Both the position numbers and the translations under genes were made by a program. DNA of 64,000 bases, taken from assembly GCA_945876035.1 (NCBI GenBank), contig CAMCMU010000020.1:1-64000 (forward strand). Direction: 5' to 3'. Below, piece after piece: positions 51,147 through 56,396 of the stretch; within the stretch, counting starts at the first letter, position 1, and each line of letters opens with the position of its first letter. This stretch comes from Schlesneria paludicola DSM 18645. GTDB taxonomy: Bacteria > Planctomycetota > Planctomycetia > Planctomycetales > Planctomycetaceae. A model generated the notes under the pieces. The model was not told the DNA's origin, searched no databases, and saw only the letters and a program-made list of their open reading frames with translations.

Positions 51147-51506
51147 ATGCCGGTCGCGACGACGCACCATTATTATATTGATCGGGAGCGGATTGCGATT
51201 GTGATCCGTTTCACGGTGAACGCACTTGAAGAAGACAATTACGACATCGTTTCCGACGAACTCTTGGAGCTGGTTTCATGGATCGCCTCCAACGCGCCGA
51301 TACCCGTCGTCGTGGAACTCTCTGAAGTCTGTCGCATCGACAGTCTGGGCTTGGCGATGCTGCAAGCGTTTAAGGACAGCATTCAGGATTCGGGTGGGGA
51401 CGTCTTTTTTCGCGCTCTGCATCCATCGGTCCTGATGGCAGTTCATGAGTCCGAATGGGATCACGAATTCAAATTTCAAGACAGTCACAACAACGCGATT
51501 TTGTGA
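51147..51506 (+). CDS. STAS-domain protein (anti-sigma-factor antagonist-like)
   Basis: 119 residues from ATG 51147, with GAGGG upstream; the frame is open for 64 codons further but is not convincing there. It is a single STAS domain. VVVELSEVCRIDSLGLAML holds the usual phosphorylation-site motif D-S-x-G (Ser about 66). IQDSGGDVFFRALHPSV is also typical. Such proteins are switched by a kinase that phosphorylates the Ser and a phosphatase that removes it, controlling an anti-sigma factor. No such partners are in the window. The gene is monocistronic. Confidence 0.85.
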   Translation: MPVATTHHYYIDRERIAIVIRFTVNALEEDNYDIVSDELLELVSWIASNAPIPVVVELSEVCRIDSLGLAMLQAFKDSIQDSGGDVFFRALHPSVLMAVHESEWDHEFKFQDSHNNAIL

Positions 51507-51624: not shown

Positions 51625-51657
51625 AAAAAAACGGCCGCACGGAATGACCGTGCGGCC
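51625..51657 (-). terminator. Rho-independent terminator for minus-strand transcription
   Basis: GGCCGCACGG, loop TCATT, CCGTGCGGCC on the minus strand, followed by G and seven T. The perfect 10-bp GC-rich stem and T run are unambiguous and point leftwards. The only minus-strand candidate it serves is the very small secreted-protein gene at 51798-51980. Confidence 0.92.
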
Positions 51658-51797
51658 TGATCGTTGATGTCTTTACCTGCTGCTGAAGCCCAATTCAAAG
51701 ATTGTCTTTTCGATGCCTTTCGTTCGCTGACTCATTCGTTTTTCAGGAGTGACGGTCGATTCGTTCTGATCTCTACAACGGGCCTTCGCCGGAAATT

Positions 51798-51980
51798 TTA
51801 CCGGCCGAACATGCTCCTCAACGACGCATTCTTTCGGCGTTCGAATTCCATAAGACGTCCCAGCGGACGGTCTCCCGAGGACACTGTTTGCCTGCCACCG
51901 AGGACACGTCTCGCGGCTTGGGCTTCACTCGATACCATGACGATTACCACCAAAGCGGCCAAAATTAGAGAGTTGCGCAA
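51798..51980 (-). CDS. Very small secreted protein with ERRKN C-terminal motif
   Basis: 60 residues from TTG 51980; AAAGGG lies eight bases upstream. The first 22 residues form a good signal peptide (LRNSLILAALVVIVMVSS, cut after AQA). The mature 38 residues are basic and end GRLMEFERRKNASLRS then MFGR. A strong minus-strand terminator lies 141 bases downstream, which supports real expression of this short frame. The frame is open for 20 more codons upstream with ATG 52040. I have an unverified memory of planctomycete small exported proteins ending in related ERRKN-x-x-LR motifs. Function unknown. Confidence 0.6.
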   Translation of the reverse strand: MRNSLILAALVVIVMVSSEAQAARRVLGGRQTVSSGDRPLGRLMEFERRKNASLRSMFGR

Positions 51981-52898
51981 GGAGTCATCCCTTTCAAAAA
52001 ATTGGAATTGAAACACCAAAAATAAGACACATCGTGTCACTCAAGAGTCGCGAAATCGTGAGTGATAGACACTGTCCGAGCATCAAACGCAGTGACTATT
52101 TCGTCCAGATAGAGTGTCATCCGCAACACGATCTCGACCGACATCGGTAAAATCTGCCGCTGCCGCGAAGCGAGTTCCGATGAGGTAAAATTGACCGGCT
52201 ATCGACCATCGCCTGACTTCGCAAAACGATCGATATTGCCACTAGACTCAGCGTAACAAGATTGTGTGATACCGGAGGCGGTAGCCATTGGTGGGCTGAC
52301 GCTGAAGGATAATTTTCAACGCGTCCGATGTCCGTGTCTATTGCAACAGGAATCTGAGGAGCACACTTAGCCGATGGCGTGAAGAGCCTCGCCTATTTCT
52401 TTGCGGATCAGCGATTTTTTTGCCCTTTCTCACGACTCTTTTCAACGGGCTTCGCTCCCAAAATGTGAGTCGTACCCTCGCTAAATCCGTTCCGTGGACT
52501 CGATTTCAGCGGCGGGACAAAGAGGAGACGGTGGCGATCTCTAAACCTAAACCATCCACACACGGCGGCGTGCATCACGGTTCTAAACGCTCGTCAACGA
52601 ATTTTCTCAGAATACCGACTGAGGTTCGTGAAAACGGGGATCTCACCCGTTCGCGCGTGCTCAGCAGGCCAAAGGCTTCCTCAGCAGTCTGATCTGAGGA
52701 AATTTTCCGCTGCCGCTTGAGGATCAATCCCCGAATCCGGGTCCCATCCTGCAAGTTTATCCCTGGCCTGTCGGACGGAGGGGTTTCCCGTGGCTTCGAG
52801 ATCCCTGAGGTTCGCCTTCGTCGCACTCCTCGACCAAAACGATTTTCTTGGTTCAAGCGGTTTGAATTGGTCTGTGTTTCACCTGAATCGATTCCGGG
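51981..52898. other. Long intergenic region with weak frames and a hairpin
   Basis: About 920 bases, containing the promoter side of the small secreted-protein gene and the downstream side of the 1165-residue gene. A plus frame of 90 codons (52420-52692) and a minus frame of 93 codons overlap and neither is convincing. A perfect 8-bp hairpin TTCCTCAG ... CTGAGGAA followed by ATTTT lies at 52677-52701. A short hairpin GACAC-ATC-GTGTC sits at 52026-52038. Confidence 0.4.
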
Positions 52899-55800
52899 CT
52901 AGCCTGTTTTGATCAACATCACTTCGGGCAACACGCGCAACGGTATCGACAATAATTTTTGTTCTGTTTCCCAATAGGCTTGCCAGTCCTCCCAGCTCAG
53001 CGAGTTCCCCGAAAACTTGAGCGTTGCTGATGGAATCGGGAACAACCCTGCCGACCTCGCCAGCGAACGAGGACGCGGCGTGATCGTCGGAGTCTCCTCG
53101 AGATCATAGCGAATTTCTGATTCGTAGTTGCCCTGTGGCCAGACGATCAAACCCGTGAGCGTGATGTCATAGGGATGTGCCCGCATCAAGAGTGATCGAT
53201 CTGAACCCTCAAGAGACGTCGCCGGTGTCGCCGGCACGAGACTCAGAGTCGGCAACGTCATCAGTTGAGTTTCAATGTGCTCTTTGACCAGATCGACAGC
53301 CCCCAACTTATAAAGTCCGGCCAAGCCTGTACGAAAAACAACGCGATCTTCATCCGTCAAACCCGCGAGCCAACCCTGATGGGAGACTCCGGCAATCAAC
53401 CACCCCGACTGCTCTGAAATTTCGATGCATGTCGGCTCATCGGGCTGATTGTCATCACGCAGAAAAATGGAAATGCGGTTGGTGGCTAGTGCGACGTGAG
53501 TGACCGAGACCGATCGCTCTCGAAACGTGCGACTCTCACGCAGTAATCCCACCAATTCGCGATCCACAAATTGCCGCACGCTTTCGGCTTCATGGTGCAT
53601 TTTTTCCGCATAGCGGGCCTGATTGTTCACCTGAGGATTTTCATGTGCATTGCGGGCAGCGCGACGACGACGAGCAAACATTTTGGGAATCGTCCCTGAA
53701 TGAAACCCCGGCCTTAACAATCGCGTCAACGATTCACCGTGGTGCCCGATGTGTACCGGACGAAGTGTCAAATGACGATTCGCCGCATACAACTTCCAAT
53801 TCTCTTTCAATTCCCATGCCAGAAACCCAAATACACCAGGAATACCCGAGAGGATCAAGCCGGCCAGCGTCCACGCCGCGGGTTTGTCGTAGAACCGTTC
53901 CAAGAGCGTCGCCAGAGGAATCAGCAGCGTCGTCATCACCAGTTTGTGCGAGACCGTCACCACGGGAAAGTGTTTAATGGGGTTGATTTGCGGCTCGATC
54001 AATAGCGTCACACAGAAGCGAATCACACCGTGGATTAAAGACCAAGCCAGCCCTAATACCGCTTTCACACCAAGCGTGATGCGAGATTCACCGCTGCGGA
54101 ACCGCAGCCATTCATCAACGGCGTACAACACTCTTTCAAGTCCGTCCATCAACCACTGGAAGGCATCGACGACAAATGTGAACAATCCGAGCAGCAGATG
54201 CGTGCGGATGCGGTACCACGTGTGCGATACAAACTCACGGGTCAACTCCTCGGTATCGCGGCCGATCCGAGAATTCAGGACGATCATCGTCAGCAGGGCT
54301 GTCACGAGGCTCCACCAGCGATCTGGGCGTTGGTAGACACCGAAAAACGGCAGAAACAAACACAAGACAGACGTTGCCAATAAGGGCGTCAGCAAGAATC
54401 GCCGAAAAAGCCGCATCGGAAAACTCTTCAGCACCCATTCGACGAGAGGAAATTCTACGATTCGGCGCGGCGCATCCAACAAAACCAACTTCAGGACTTT
54501 TCGAGTGGCCTTCAGCAACAAAATGACGACATTCCGGAAGGAAAGAAGGTGGATGAAGGCAAAAATAAACAGGCCCAGCCAAAACATGTTTGTTGACGAA
54601 TAGATCAAAAATTGATGCGCTGCCGATCGATCGGCGCCAATCACAAGATGAGCGATTTCCTCCGCAGCCATCAACGAGAGAAACGACAGTCCAAACGGCA
54701 GGAAGAAAAATTTGGTGAGGACTCGTCCGCAAGCTGTGCCGTAGGCCAACGAACTTGCCCGCTGTAGCCAACGCAGGTAAAACGGACCACGCTGATAAAC
54801 ACCTTCCAATGGTGACGACAATATTTTGTCGGCCCGCAGCAGCGGATCCCCTGTGACAAGTTCCCGAACGTTGTTGAGATCTGGCATCTTCAACTGATTA
54901 CGTGAAATCGCATCTCGCAAATTTCCGAGAGTCAAGAAACCGCGTTGGACGACTCCGTCCAAAAGTTCTTGAGTGACTTTTTGCAATGCAACTCTTTCCA
55001 CGACACCTTGCGGAACGAATCCCGCCGCGCGGAGTGCCTCTCTAACCAAGGGTTCCATTCGCCGTCGCAGAATGTGTTCGGCGGCATCGGCAGCGGCGTG
55101 CAACAATCGACTCAATTCTTGTCGACCCGTGGCATTGATTTGCACTACGGGGACGCGCAACACCGCGCGGCGGAGGTGTTTCGACATCATCACAATGCGT
55201 TGATTTGGCAGTGGTCGTTTGAGCGACACCCGGCCTAGGTTCTTCAACCAGGAGAGCAAGTCCGTCTTGTAGATCTCCTGTTCGTGATCGAGGCACACCT
55301 GTTGCAAATCAGACAGCAATCGAGCATTCGCGTTCCAAAAACCGCGTCGCGCGGCCGGCAACAATCGCTCACACATCGCCAACCATGGACGGACCTCAAC
55401 GTCGGACAATTCCAATGCCGCCTGGAGGCGTAACACGAGACGTTCGATCTCACTTAACAACTCGTTCCGGGCAGCGTTCATGATATTCAGCGGAGCCACG
55501 TCAAAGGCCTTGCGTCGGACGAGCGCCGCACGAACATTATTGCCCTCTTGGCGAAACCGATTGGCGCCGCGCACAAGCGATGCATACTTTCGTGACGAAC
55601 GGGCGCCGAGAGGAATCTGCGAACCATCCAGAAGCACTTCTGTGACGTCGTTCAAACACTCAACAGAGACGACTGAAGCAACAGCGGGAATGTCAGCGGG
55701 CCGCGTTGCATCCAACAAAGAGTCCGCATTGCAATCGGCAGTGATCGCCCGCAGGGCAACGGTCTCATTCAATAAAGGGAAATAGAGGGGTAACAAATCG

Positions 55801-56396
55801 GGAGCGAAGACATGTAGTTCATGCCAGACAGCCACAAATTCGGCGTAGACATGACGCGGATCCTCGGGCCGACACAACATCTGCTCCGTCCGCAAGACCG
55901 ACTGAATCGCGTCGAACTGTGTGTTTCCGATCGCATCAATTCGTCGGCGCAGTTCGGCCCTTGTCATTCGTGACGGAGATGATTTTGATTCGAGTTCGAA
56001 ATCAATCCGAGCGTGAAACAAGAGACGCCAATAGTAACGCAATAAATCTTCCCGTGAAAATTTTTGCAGACGATCTTCTTCGGGTCTGGCAATCAGAATC
56101 AGACGCTGAGGAAGCGTCGCATCGACATCGACACCCAATTCGTCACGCGCCACGATCCACAACAGTCGGTCGCGATCGATAACACACGATTTACGGTGCG
56201 GTGGCGGCAGCCAAGGACTTGTAATATCCACTTCACTTTGCCAGACACGTCGTACGACTCGGGGCAAAACAAAGAAGACTCCCGCGTCTCGTTCTCGAAA
56301 AATTTGCTCGACTTCGGCAACCCATTGCTCATTGCGTGAACTCTGCAAATCGGGCATTTGTGAACCTGCGGTCATCGTTTCCGTCACGTCATCCAC
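52899..56396 (-). CDS. Very large membrane protein of unknown function
   Basis: 1165 residues (GTG start). Residues 1-555 are soluble, with WLPPPHRKSCVIDRDRLLWI, YYWRLLFHARIDFELESK, FLTLGNLRDAISRNQLKMP and many Arg-rich helices. About residues 560-860 hold some eight hydrophobic helices (for example NMFWLGLFIFAFIHLLSF and LATSVLCLFLPFFGVY). Residues 860-1165 are soluble again, including HIGHHGESLTRLLRP and a beta-rich tail. I recognise no domain. Two soluble parts flanking one central membrane block suggest a single inner-membrane machine. It is alone on minus, upstream gap 535 bases, neighbour of the caspase-FGE gene in divergent orientation. Confidence 0.85.
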   Translation of the reverse strand: MDDVTETMTAGSQMPDLQSSRNEQWVAEVEQIFRERDAGVFFVLPRVVRRVWQSEVDITSPWLPPPHRKSCVIDRDRLLWIVARDELGVDVDATLPQRLILIARPEEDRLQKFSREDLLRYYWRLLFHARIDFELESKSSPSRMTRAELRRRIDAIGNTQFDAIQSVLRTEQMLCRPEDPRHVYAEFVAVWHELHVFAPDLLPLYFPLLNETVALRAITADCNADSLLDATRPADIPAVASVVSVECLNDVTEVLLDGSQIPLGARSSRKYASLVRGANRFRQEGNNVRAALVRRKAFDVAPLNIMNAARNELLSEIERLVLRLQAALELSDVEVRPWLAMCERLLPAARRGFWNANARLLSDLQQVCLDHEQEIYKTDLLSWLKNLGRVSLKRPLPNQRIVMMSKHLRRAVLRVPVVQINATGRQELSRLLHAAADAAEHILRRRMEPLVREALRAAGFVPQGVVERVALQKVTQELLDGVVQRGFLTLGNLRDAISRNQLKMPDLNNVRELVTGDPLLRADKILSSPLEGVYQRGPFYLRWLQRASSLAYGTACGRVLTKFFFLPFGLSFLSLMAAEEIAHLVIGADRSAAHQFLIYSSTNMFWLGLFIFAFIHLLSFRNVVILLLKATRKVLKLVLLDAPRRIVEFPLVEWVLKSFPMRLFRRFLLTPLLATSVLCLFLPFFGVYQRPDRWWSLVTALLTMIVLNSRIGRDTEELTREFVSHTWYRIRTHLLLGLFTFVVDAFQWLMDGLERVLYAVDEWLRFRSGESRITLGVKAVLGLAWSLIHGVIRFCVTLLIEPQINPIKHFPVVTVSHKLVMTTLLIPLATLLERFYDKPAAWTLAGLILSGIPGVFGFLAWELKENWKLYAANRHLTLRPVHIGHHGESLTRLLRPGFHSGTIPKMFARRRRAARNAHENPQVNNQARYAEKMHHEAESVRQFVDRELVGLLRESRTFRERSVSVTHVALATNRISIFLRDDNQPDEPTCIEISEQSGWLIAGVSHQGWLAGLTDEDRVVFRTGLAGLYKLGAVDLVKEHIETQLMTLPTLSLVPATPATSLEGSDRSLLMRAHPYDITLTGLIVWPQGNYESEIRYDLEETPTITPRPRSLARSAGLFPIPSATLKFSGNSLSWEDWQAYWETEQKLLSIPLRVLPEVMLIKTG

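Follow-up and report, generated by a model that had tools for sequence, protein, structure and literature searches.

The window, by which we mean the whole 64,000-nt stretch of DNA analysed, carries on its minus strand a gene for a small, apparently exported protein of 60 residues, whose features are collected in Table 1. The assembly of the source genome totals 4.7 Mb in 102 contigs, and the genus Schlesneria is placed in the family Planctomycetaceae in NCBI. On one side of the small gene, at 51147-51506, the plus strand encodes a STAS-domain protein; on the other, upstream of the small gene on the minus strand, lies a frame of 1165 aa (52899-56396) that displays several hydrophobic stretches by eye and had no Pfam match at E 0.01. 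The 60-aa gene is single copy in its own genome, since the next-best matches there have an E of about 1.

Table 1 Features of the small gene in the window and the evidence for each.
Feature	Position	Strand	Details and basis
Gene for small protein, 60 aa, very probably exported	51798..51980	-	TTG start at 51980, stop TAA 51798-51800; frame, homologues and selection
Predicted signal peptide, residues 1-22	51915..51980	-	predicted cut after EAQA (A22|A23); hydropathy and -3/-1 rule
C-terminal module, residues 39-60 (PLGRLMEFERRKNASLRSMFGR)	51801..51866	-	predicted helix 39-58; alignments and AlphaFold
TTGAAAGGGATGACTCC, immediately 5' of the TTG start	51981..51997	-	contains ribosome-binding-site-like AAAGGG; aligned with same-genus relatives
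Predicted intrinsic terminator hairpin, then GTTTTTTTAT	51633..51657	-	terminator scan and folding

Every one of the other 14 genomes in the genus (the Schlesneria group) carries a homologue of the small protein, with E from 4e-15 to 1.7e-5 for a single-sequence query. In each of the 11 pairs analysed, synonymous change per site was greater than nonsynonymous change (pN/pS 0.10-0.41); the least constrained pair was that of the window copy and L005, with a pN/pS of 0.41 and raw counts of 30 synonymous and 38 nonsynonymous changes. Three overlapping close pairs showed no nonsynonymous change in the core, versus 2, 4 and 6 synonymous changes, and in diverged pairs the core was not clearly better kept than the rest of the protein (pN of core versus whole, 0.21 vs 0.28 for window-L005, 0.24 vs 0.22 for L015-L008 and 0.15 vs 0.13 for L008-L011). 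These results indicate that the codons of the small gene are under purifying selection, and that the TTG frame is almost certainly a genuine protein gene. The sequence-only reading had held that a small 60-residue gene on the minus strand is real because its terminator implied one. The gene itself stands, borne out by the homologues and the selection on its codons, whereas the argument does not, since a strong terminator could equally be used by an RNA gene and is weak evidence alone; it is homology and codon evolution that settle the case. The opposite view, in which the frame is fortuitous and overlies a small RNA or a stray terminator, could point to the TTG start, the mere 60 codons and the lack of a Pfam or NCBIfam family, but it is refuted by codon evolution and by the homologous proteins throughout the genus, no Rfam match was found at gathering score, and we give it practically no weight.

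The start codon of the window copy is unusual within its own group. The TTG start proposed from the sequence is confirmed here, yet it is an exception in the family: all 14 same-genus relatives have ATG at the identical alignment column, with AAGGA a few bases upstream in 14 of 14, whereas the window copy has TTG for ATG and AAAGGG for AAGGA. In the wider set of 84 members, 82 begin with ATG, a count to be read with the preference of our start picker for ATG and for basic and hydrophobic starts. Farther upstream, an 18-base element, GGCANNCGCGTCACACCG, occurs exactly once per genome in 8 of the 15 genus genomes (L183-L190), and in these it always ends 56-62 nt 5' of the ATG of the small gene; a reversed control pattern occurred in none of the 15. 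Pairwise identity in the element was 0.94, a value inflated because the pattern chose the sites, versus 0.55 and 0.44 in the flanks, compared ungapped. The element is absent from the genome of the window. It looks like a possible dedicated promoter or operator of the small gene alone. With the sequence that precedes it, the element forms a TTGCC-N4-GGCA inverted repeat in six of the eight genomes.

Downstream, a minus-strand terminator with seven T had been predicted and was recovered. Its hairpin begins 140 nt after the stop of the 60-codon frame and consists of ten pairs, nine of them G-C, with a loop of five and the seven-T tail GTTTTTTTAT; the plus strand has no T-run after the hairpin. 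A 61-nt segment that includes the hairpin has a folding energy of -25.5 kcal/mol (z -5.6), which none of 200 shuffles equalled. Terminator-like sites in the whole scan were near chance (4 found, 3.4 expected), and the hairpin of the small gene had the longest stem of the four, with 10 pairs versus 7, 6 and 5. Among 83 members, which are related and thus not independent, a strict terminator was detected at most 300 nt after the stop in 27, an undercount because the rule requires gap-free stems; in the controls, the counts were 38 among 1660 sequences obtained by single-base shuffling of these stretches and 11 among 83 stretches read antisense. Because terminators recur after members of the family, the small gene is probably a stand-alone transcription unit that ends at its own terminator.

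The presence of a signal peptide, also anticipated by the sequence-only reading, agreed with sequence rules, which give MRNSLILAALVVIVMVSSEAQA|A for the window protein. A simple hydropathy-based rule of our own recognised the features of a Sec signal peptide cut by signal peptidase I (a basic n-region, a hydrophobic core and small residues at -3/-1) in 83 of 84 members; this count is in part circular, as the start picker gives preference to starts that are basic and hydrophobic. Export of the protein is strongly indicated by these features, and we regard it as very probable; cleavage by signal peptidase I would follow EAQA. The window protein has no cysteine and hence no lipobox for signal peptidase II, and the LPAM_1 match of one relative scored 12.2 against a cut-off of 20.

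The general plan of the family is a signal peptide followed by a variable linker and then by a C-terminal module whose sequence approximates FxRLMELERRKNAWLRxxFxGR. The ERRKN-type C-terminus seen earlier in the window protein is indeed there, as ERRKN-A-S-L near the C-terminus. Length ranges from 56 to 168 residues (median 67) in the 84-member set, which was collected with a pattern in which the motif must stand 5-14 residues ahead of the stop; for this reason the set cannot measure the frequency of terminal tails. A second set of 44 loci had no tail limit, but its loci were picked from profile matches; there, 6-12 residues follow the motif in 41, and the motif lies farther from the C-terminus in three (tails of 88 residues in L168, 34 in L170 and 19 in L169). 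In L168 the motif comes directly after the signal peptide and is followed by the 88 residues, and in L169 and L170 its surroundings are Cys-rich; the three possibly represent a second subfamily. L169 is a second, divergent match in genome G073, beside an ordinary one. The linker varies in length and in kind, being Arg-rich, Gln/Tyr-rich or furnished with CPxCGxxH; the CPxCGxxH linkers, found in L164, L165 and L182, are a candidate metal-binding half-site.

Over the 18 rows of the first alignment (A1), M1, E47, R48, R49, K50, N51, A52 and L54 are invariant, and A22 is conserved in at least 90% of the rows. In the rows of the tail-only alignment (A2), invariance of ERRKN is partly by construction, a bias of which the 18-row alignment is free. 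The variants EQRKN, ERAKN, ERKKN, EKRKN, ENRKN and DRRSN also occur, and in a 52-row alignment N alone is invariant in the motif. AlphaFold predicted one helix at residues 2-27 and another at 39-58, separated by a segment of low confidence (mean pLDDT 69.7, pTM 0.31). The mature window peptide would have 38 residues, with 10 R/K and 3 D/E and a computed pI of 12, and the last 26 residues carry a net charge of +2 to +6 across the 84 members. The helical moment of the module was reached on average by 22% of shuffles (50% by chance) in these members; fewer than 5% of shuffles reached it in only one of the 84, and the value for the window copy was 39%. The C-terminal helix is thus modestly, not strongly, amphipathic.

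The sequence-only reading had further envisaged a small exported family with an ERRKN-x2-L tail, to be sought in planctomycete genomes; such a search retrieved homologues in three families. The 18-row profile matched 85 of the 170 GTDB-family genomes and 21 of 392 genomes of the phylum, and its strong same-genus scores are expected, since same-genus rows helped build it. Eight of the matched phylum genomes lie outside the class, with matches (E 5e-4 to 0.009) too weak to be accepted, and the motif was not found when five of their loci were searched for it. The tail-only profile, with 38 rows gathered by searching E(R/K)RKN, matched 86 of 170 family genomes and 92 of 397 class genomes across three families (f1, f5 and f110); this class-wide search scored no more than 20 candidates in each genome, and 5 of the 92 genomes are marginal, with a best E above 1e-4. 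The 52-row core profile matched 87 of the 170 family genomes. The remaining 83, which include every g47 genome among those listed, had no match to it, and therefore the function is not universal; as the broader profile finds 87 rather than 86, divergence does not explain the missing half at the sensitivity tested. Two matches were found in only 4 of the 87 matching genomes. In L177 (G144 contig 49), two family members lie about 6.5 kb apart on one contig. A narrow peptide pattern picked out 62 stretches in 84,980 species genomes; 31 of these were confirmed as relatives, and their titles name planctomycetes in every case but one, which reads just 'bacterium'. Viruses and plasmids were rejected as carriers of the family: plasmids gave no match to it, and none of the 49 pattern stretches in viral contigs was confirmed.

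Neighbouring genes were compared in frames of at least 90 aa up to 5 kb on each side of 31 named loci and the window. No neighbour was common to the window and any of the 31 loci, and an operon partner was accordingly rejected as a clue to function; neighbours were otherwise common mainly within a genus or family. A second comparison covered 51 of 54 loci without the window, L170, L174 and L182 having been dropped as not orientable. In the two comparisons together, with gene names taken from reading the sequences, a sigma-54-type regulator was common to L110 and four Schlesneria loci, a phosphoglycerate-dehydrogenase-like gene to L088 and six f110 loci, and an SDR-like gene to L141 and L178 with L150, L160 and L162; another gene type was common to L175 and L150, L160 and L162, and recurring frames were common to L087 and L101 and to L090 and L107. 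The gene types that recur across genera stand at other places or on other strands, and we take them to be common genes met by chance.

We tentatively propose that the small gene encodes a stand-alone protein that is exported through Sec and uses its C-terminal helix to dock on a conserved partner in the envelope, a reading that we hold to be possible, though somewhat short of an even chance. The gene would be transcribed alone and end at its own terminator; once Sec had exported the product, signal peptidase I would cut it behind EAQA, and the basic 38-residue peptide that is left would have a disordered front and a helix in the last ~20 residues. The C-terminal module would then act as a docking peptide for one conserved partner in the planctomycete envelope, in the periplasm or at the cell surface, and the linker as a spacer, equipped in some genera with CPxCGxxH or Q/Y-rich stretches. 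Docking is proposed because the polar and charged residues E-R-R-K-N are the best conserved, the module is terminal and the linker is variable; both the docking and the nature of the partner are parts of our hypothesis. The gene is usually single copy and without linked genes, which suggests that its product serves the envelope as a structural component or an adaptor. Several findings count against the proposal as a whole: the motif variants, the three of 44 loci with a non-terminal motif, the 83 of 170 family genomes without a match, the core of diverged pairs not being clearly better kept, the ARR after the cut, and some amphipathicity. The planctomycete cell envelope is unusual, with many parts lacking an assignment, and a protein that is apparently exported, is mostly single copy and keeps a near-fixed 20-residue tail across several families could serve as bait for an envelope partner. 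A bolder form, which we consider rather doubtful, is that the tail is the ligand of a planctomycete-specific envelope machine, with usually one exported adaptor per genome, a single ancient receptor and a genus-tuned linker that sometimes binds metal through CPxCGxxH.

Four other readings of an expressed protein were weighed. Basic residues right after a bacterial Sec cleavage site are unusual, and the mature part of the window protein begins ARR. The N-terminus might stay uncleaved as an inner-membrane anchor, so that the tail acts beside a membrane protein, which would be compatible with docking at another place. In the Schlesneria group the hydrophobic segment is indeed followed at once by basic residues, but the small-residue site at -3/-1 in 83 of 84 members, the conservation of A22 and a hydrophobic core that by eye is shorter than a usual membrane span make an anchor unlikely. 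We consider it less probable still that the C-terminal ~20 residues are freed by proteolysis as a secreted signalling peptide and sensed by a receptor. The succession of leader, variable linker and conserved C-terminal peptide does resemble a precursor; pheromone-type peptides, however, usually diverge between species, whereas this tail is kept across families, and neither a constant processing site before the module (by eye) nor a receptor gene among the neighbours was recognised.

The last two readings turn on the basic character of the module. As a peripheral helix on anionic lipid or LPS of the envelope, it would need no protein partner, and its net charge, its predicted helix and a helical moment above that of shuffles would all fit. 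Nevertheless, that moment is outstanding in a single member and ordinary in the window copy, and the best-conserved residues are specific and polar, so that a membrane-lying amphipathic helix is less favoured, at a probability a shade lower again than that of a signalling peptide. A cationic membrane-active peptide of bacteriocin or defence type, directed against competitors, is the least probable of the four and to us improbable: the mature peptide is small, apparently exported and strongly basic, but its tail is kept across families rather than diversified, no immunity or transporter gene was recognised among the neighbours, and the searches of bacteriocin and defence families speak against it. 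When three members were compared with Pfam and NCBIfam, bacteriocin families gave matches below curated cut-offs only, the sole bacteriocin-type match being that of one relative to mediterrocin (score 12.2, cut-off 40), and none of 18 members matched a PADLOC anti-phage defence model at E 0.01 or better. The modest helical moment above shuffles was counted as leaning towards specific recognition, and docking to a specific partner would fit these data better than a membrane-active peptide.

Sequence searches of Pfam, NCBIfam, PHROGs, PADLOC and the PDB returned nothing credible (best E 0.19 for PDB sequences), and the strings 'ERRKNAW' and 'ELERRKN' did not occur in the literature searched, whose coverage was partial. 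An unnamed cluster corresponding to the family may be present elsewhere, for example in small-protein catalogues. We regard the family as new but of a familiar kind: like the lineage-restricted small exported proteins of unknown function for which catalogues such as GMSC and sORFdb exist, its members are mostly shorter than 100 residues, with a signal peptide and no domain match; unlike them, it keeps one C-terminal module across three families of the class while the linker is free. Family libraries and start-codon habits can miss real small genes, and the TTG-started gene in the window is an example. A short conserved stretch at the C-terminus of exported proteins also recalls, by eye, the PEP-CTERM sorting tags. 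Those tags occur on many different proteins per genome and consist of a hydrophobic span plus a basic end; the module described here differs in both respects, as it is charged throughout without a hydrophobic span (by eye), and 83 of the 87 matching genomes have exactly one match.
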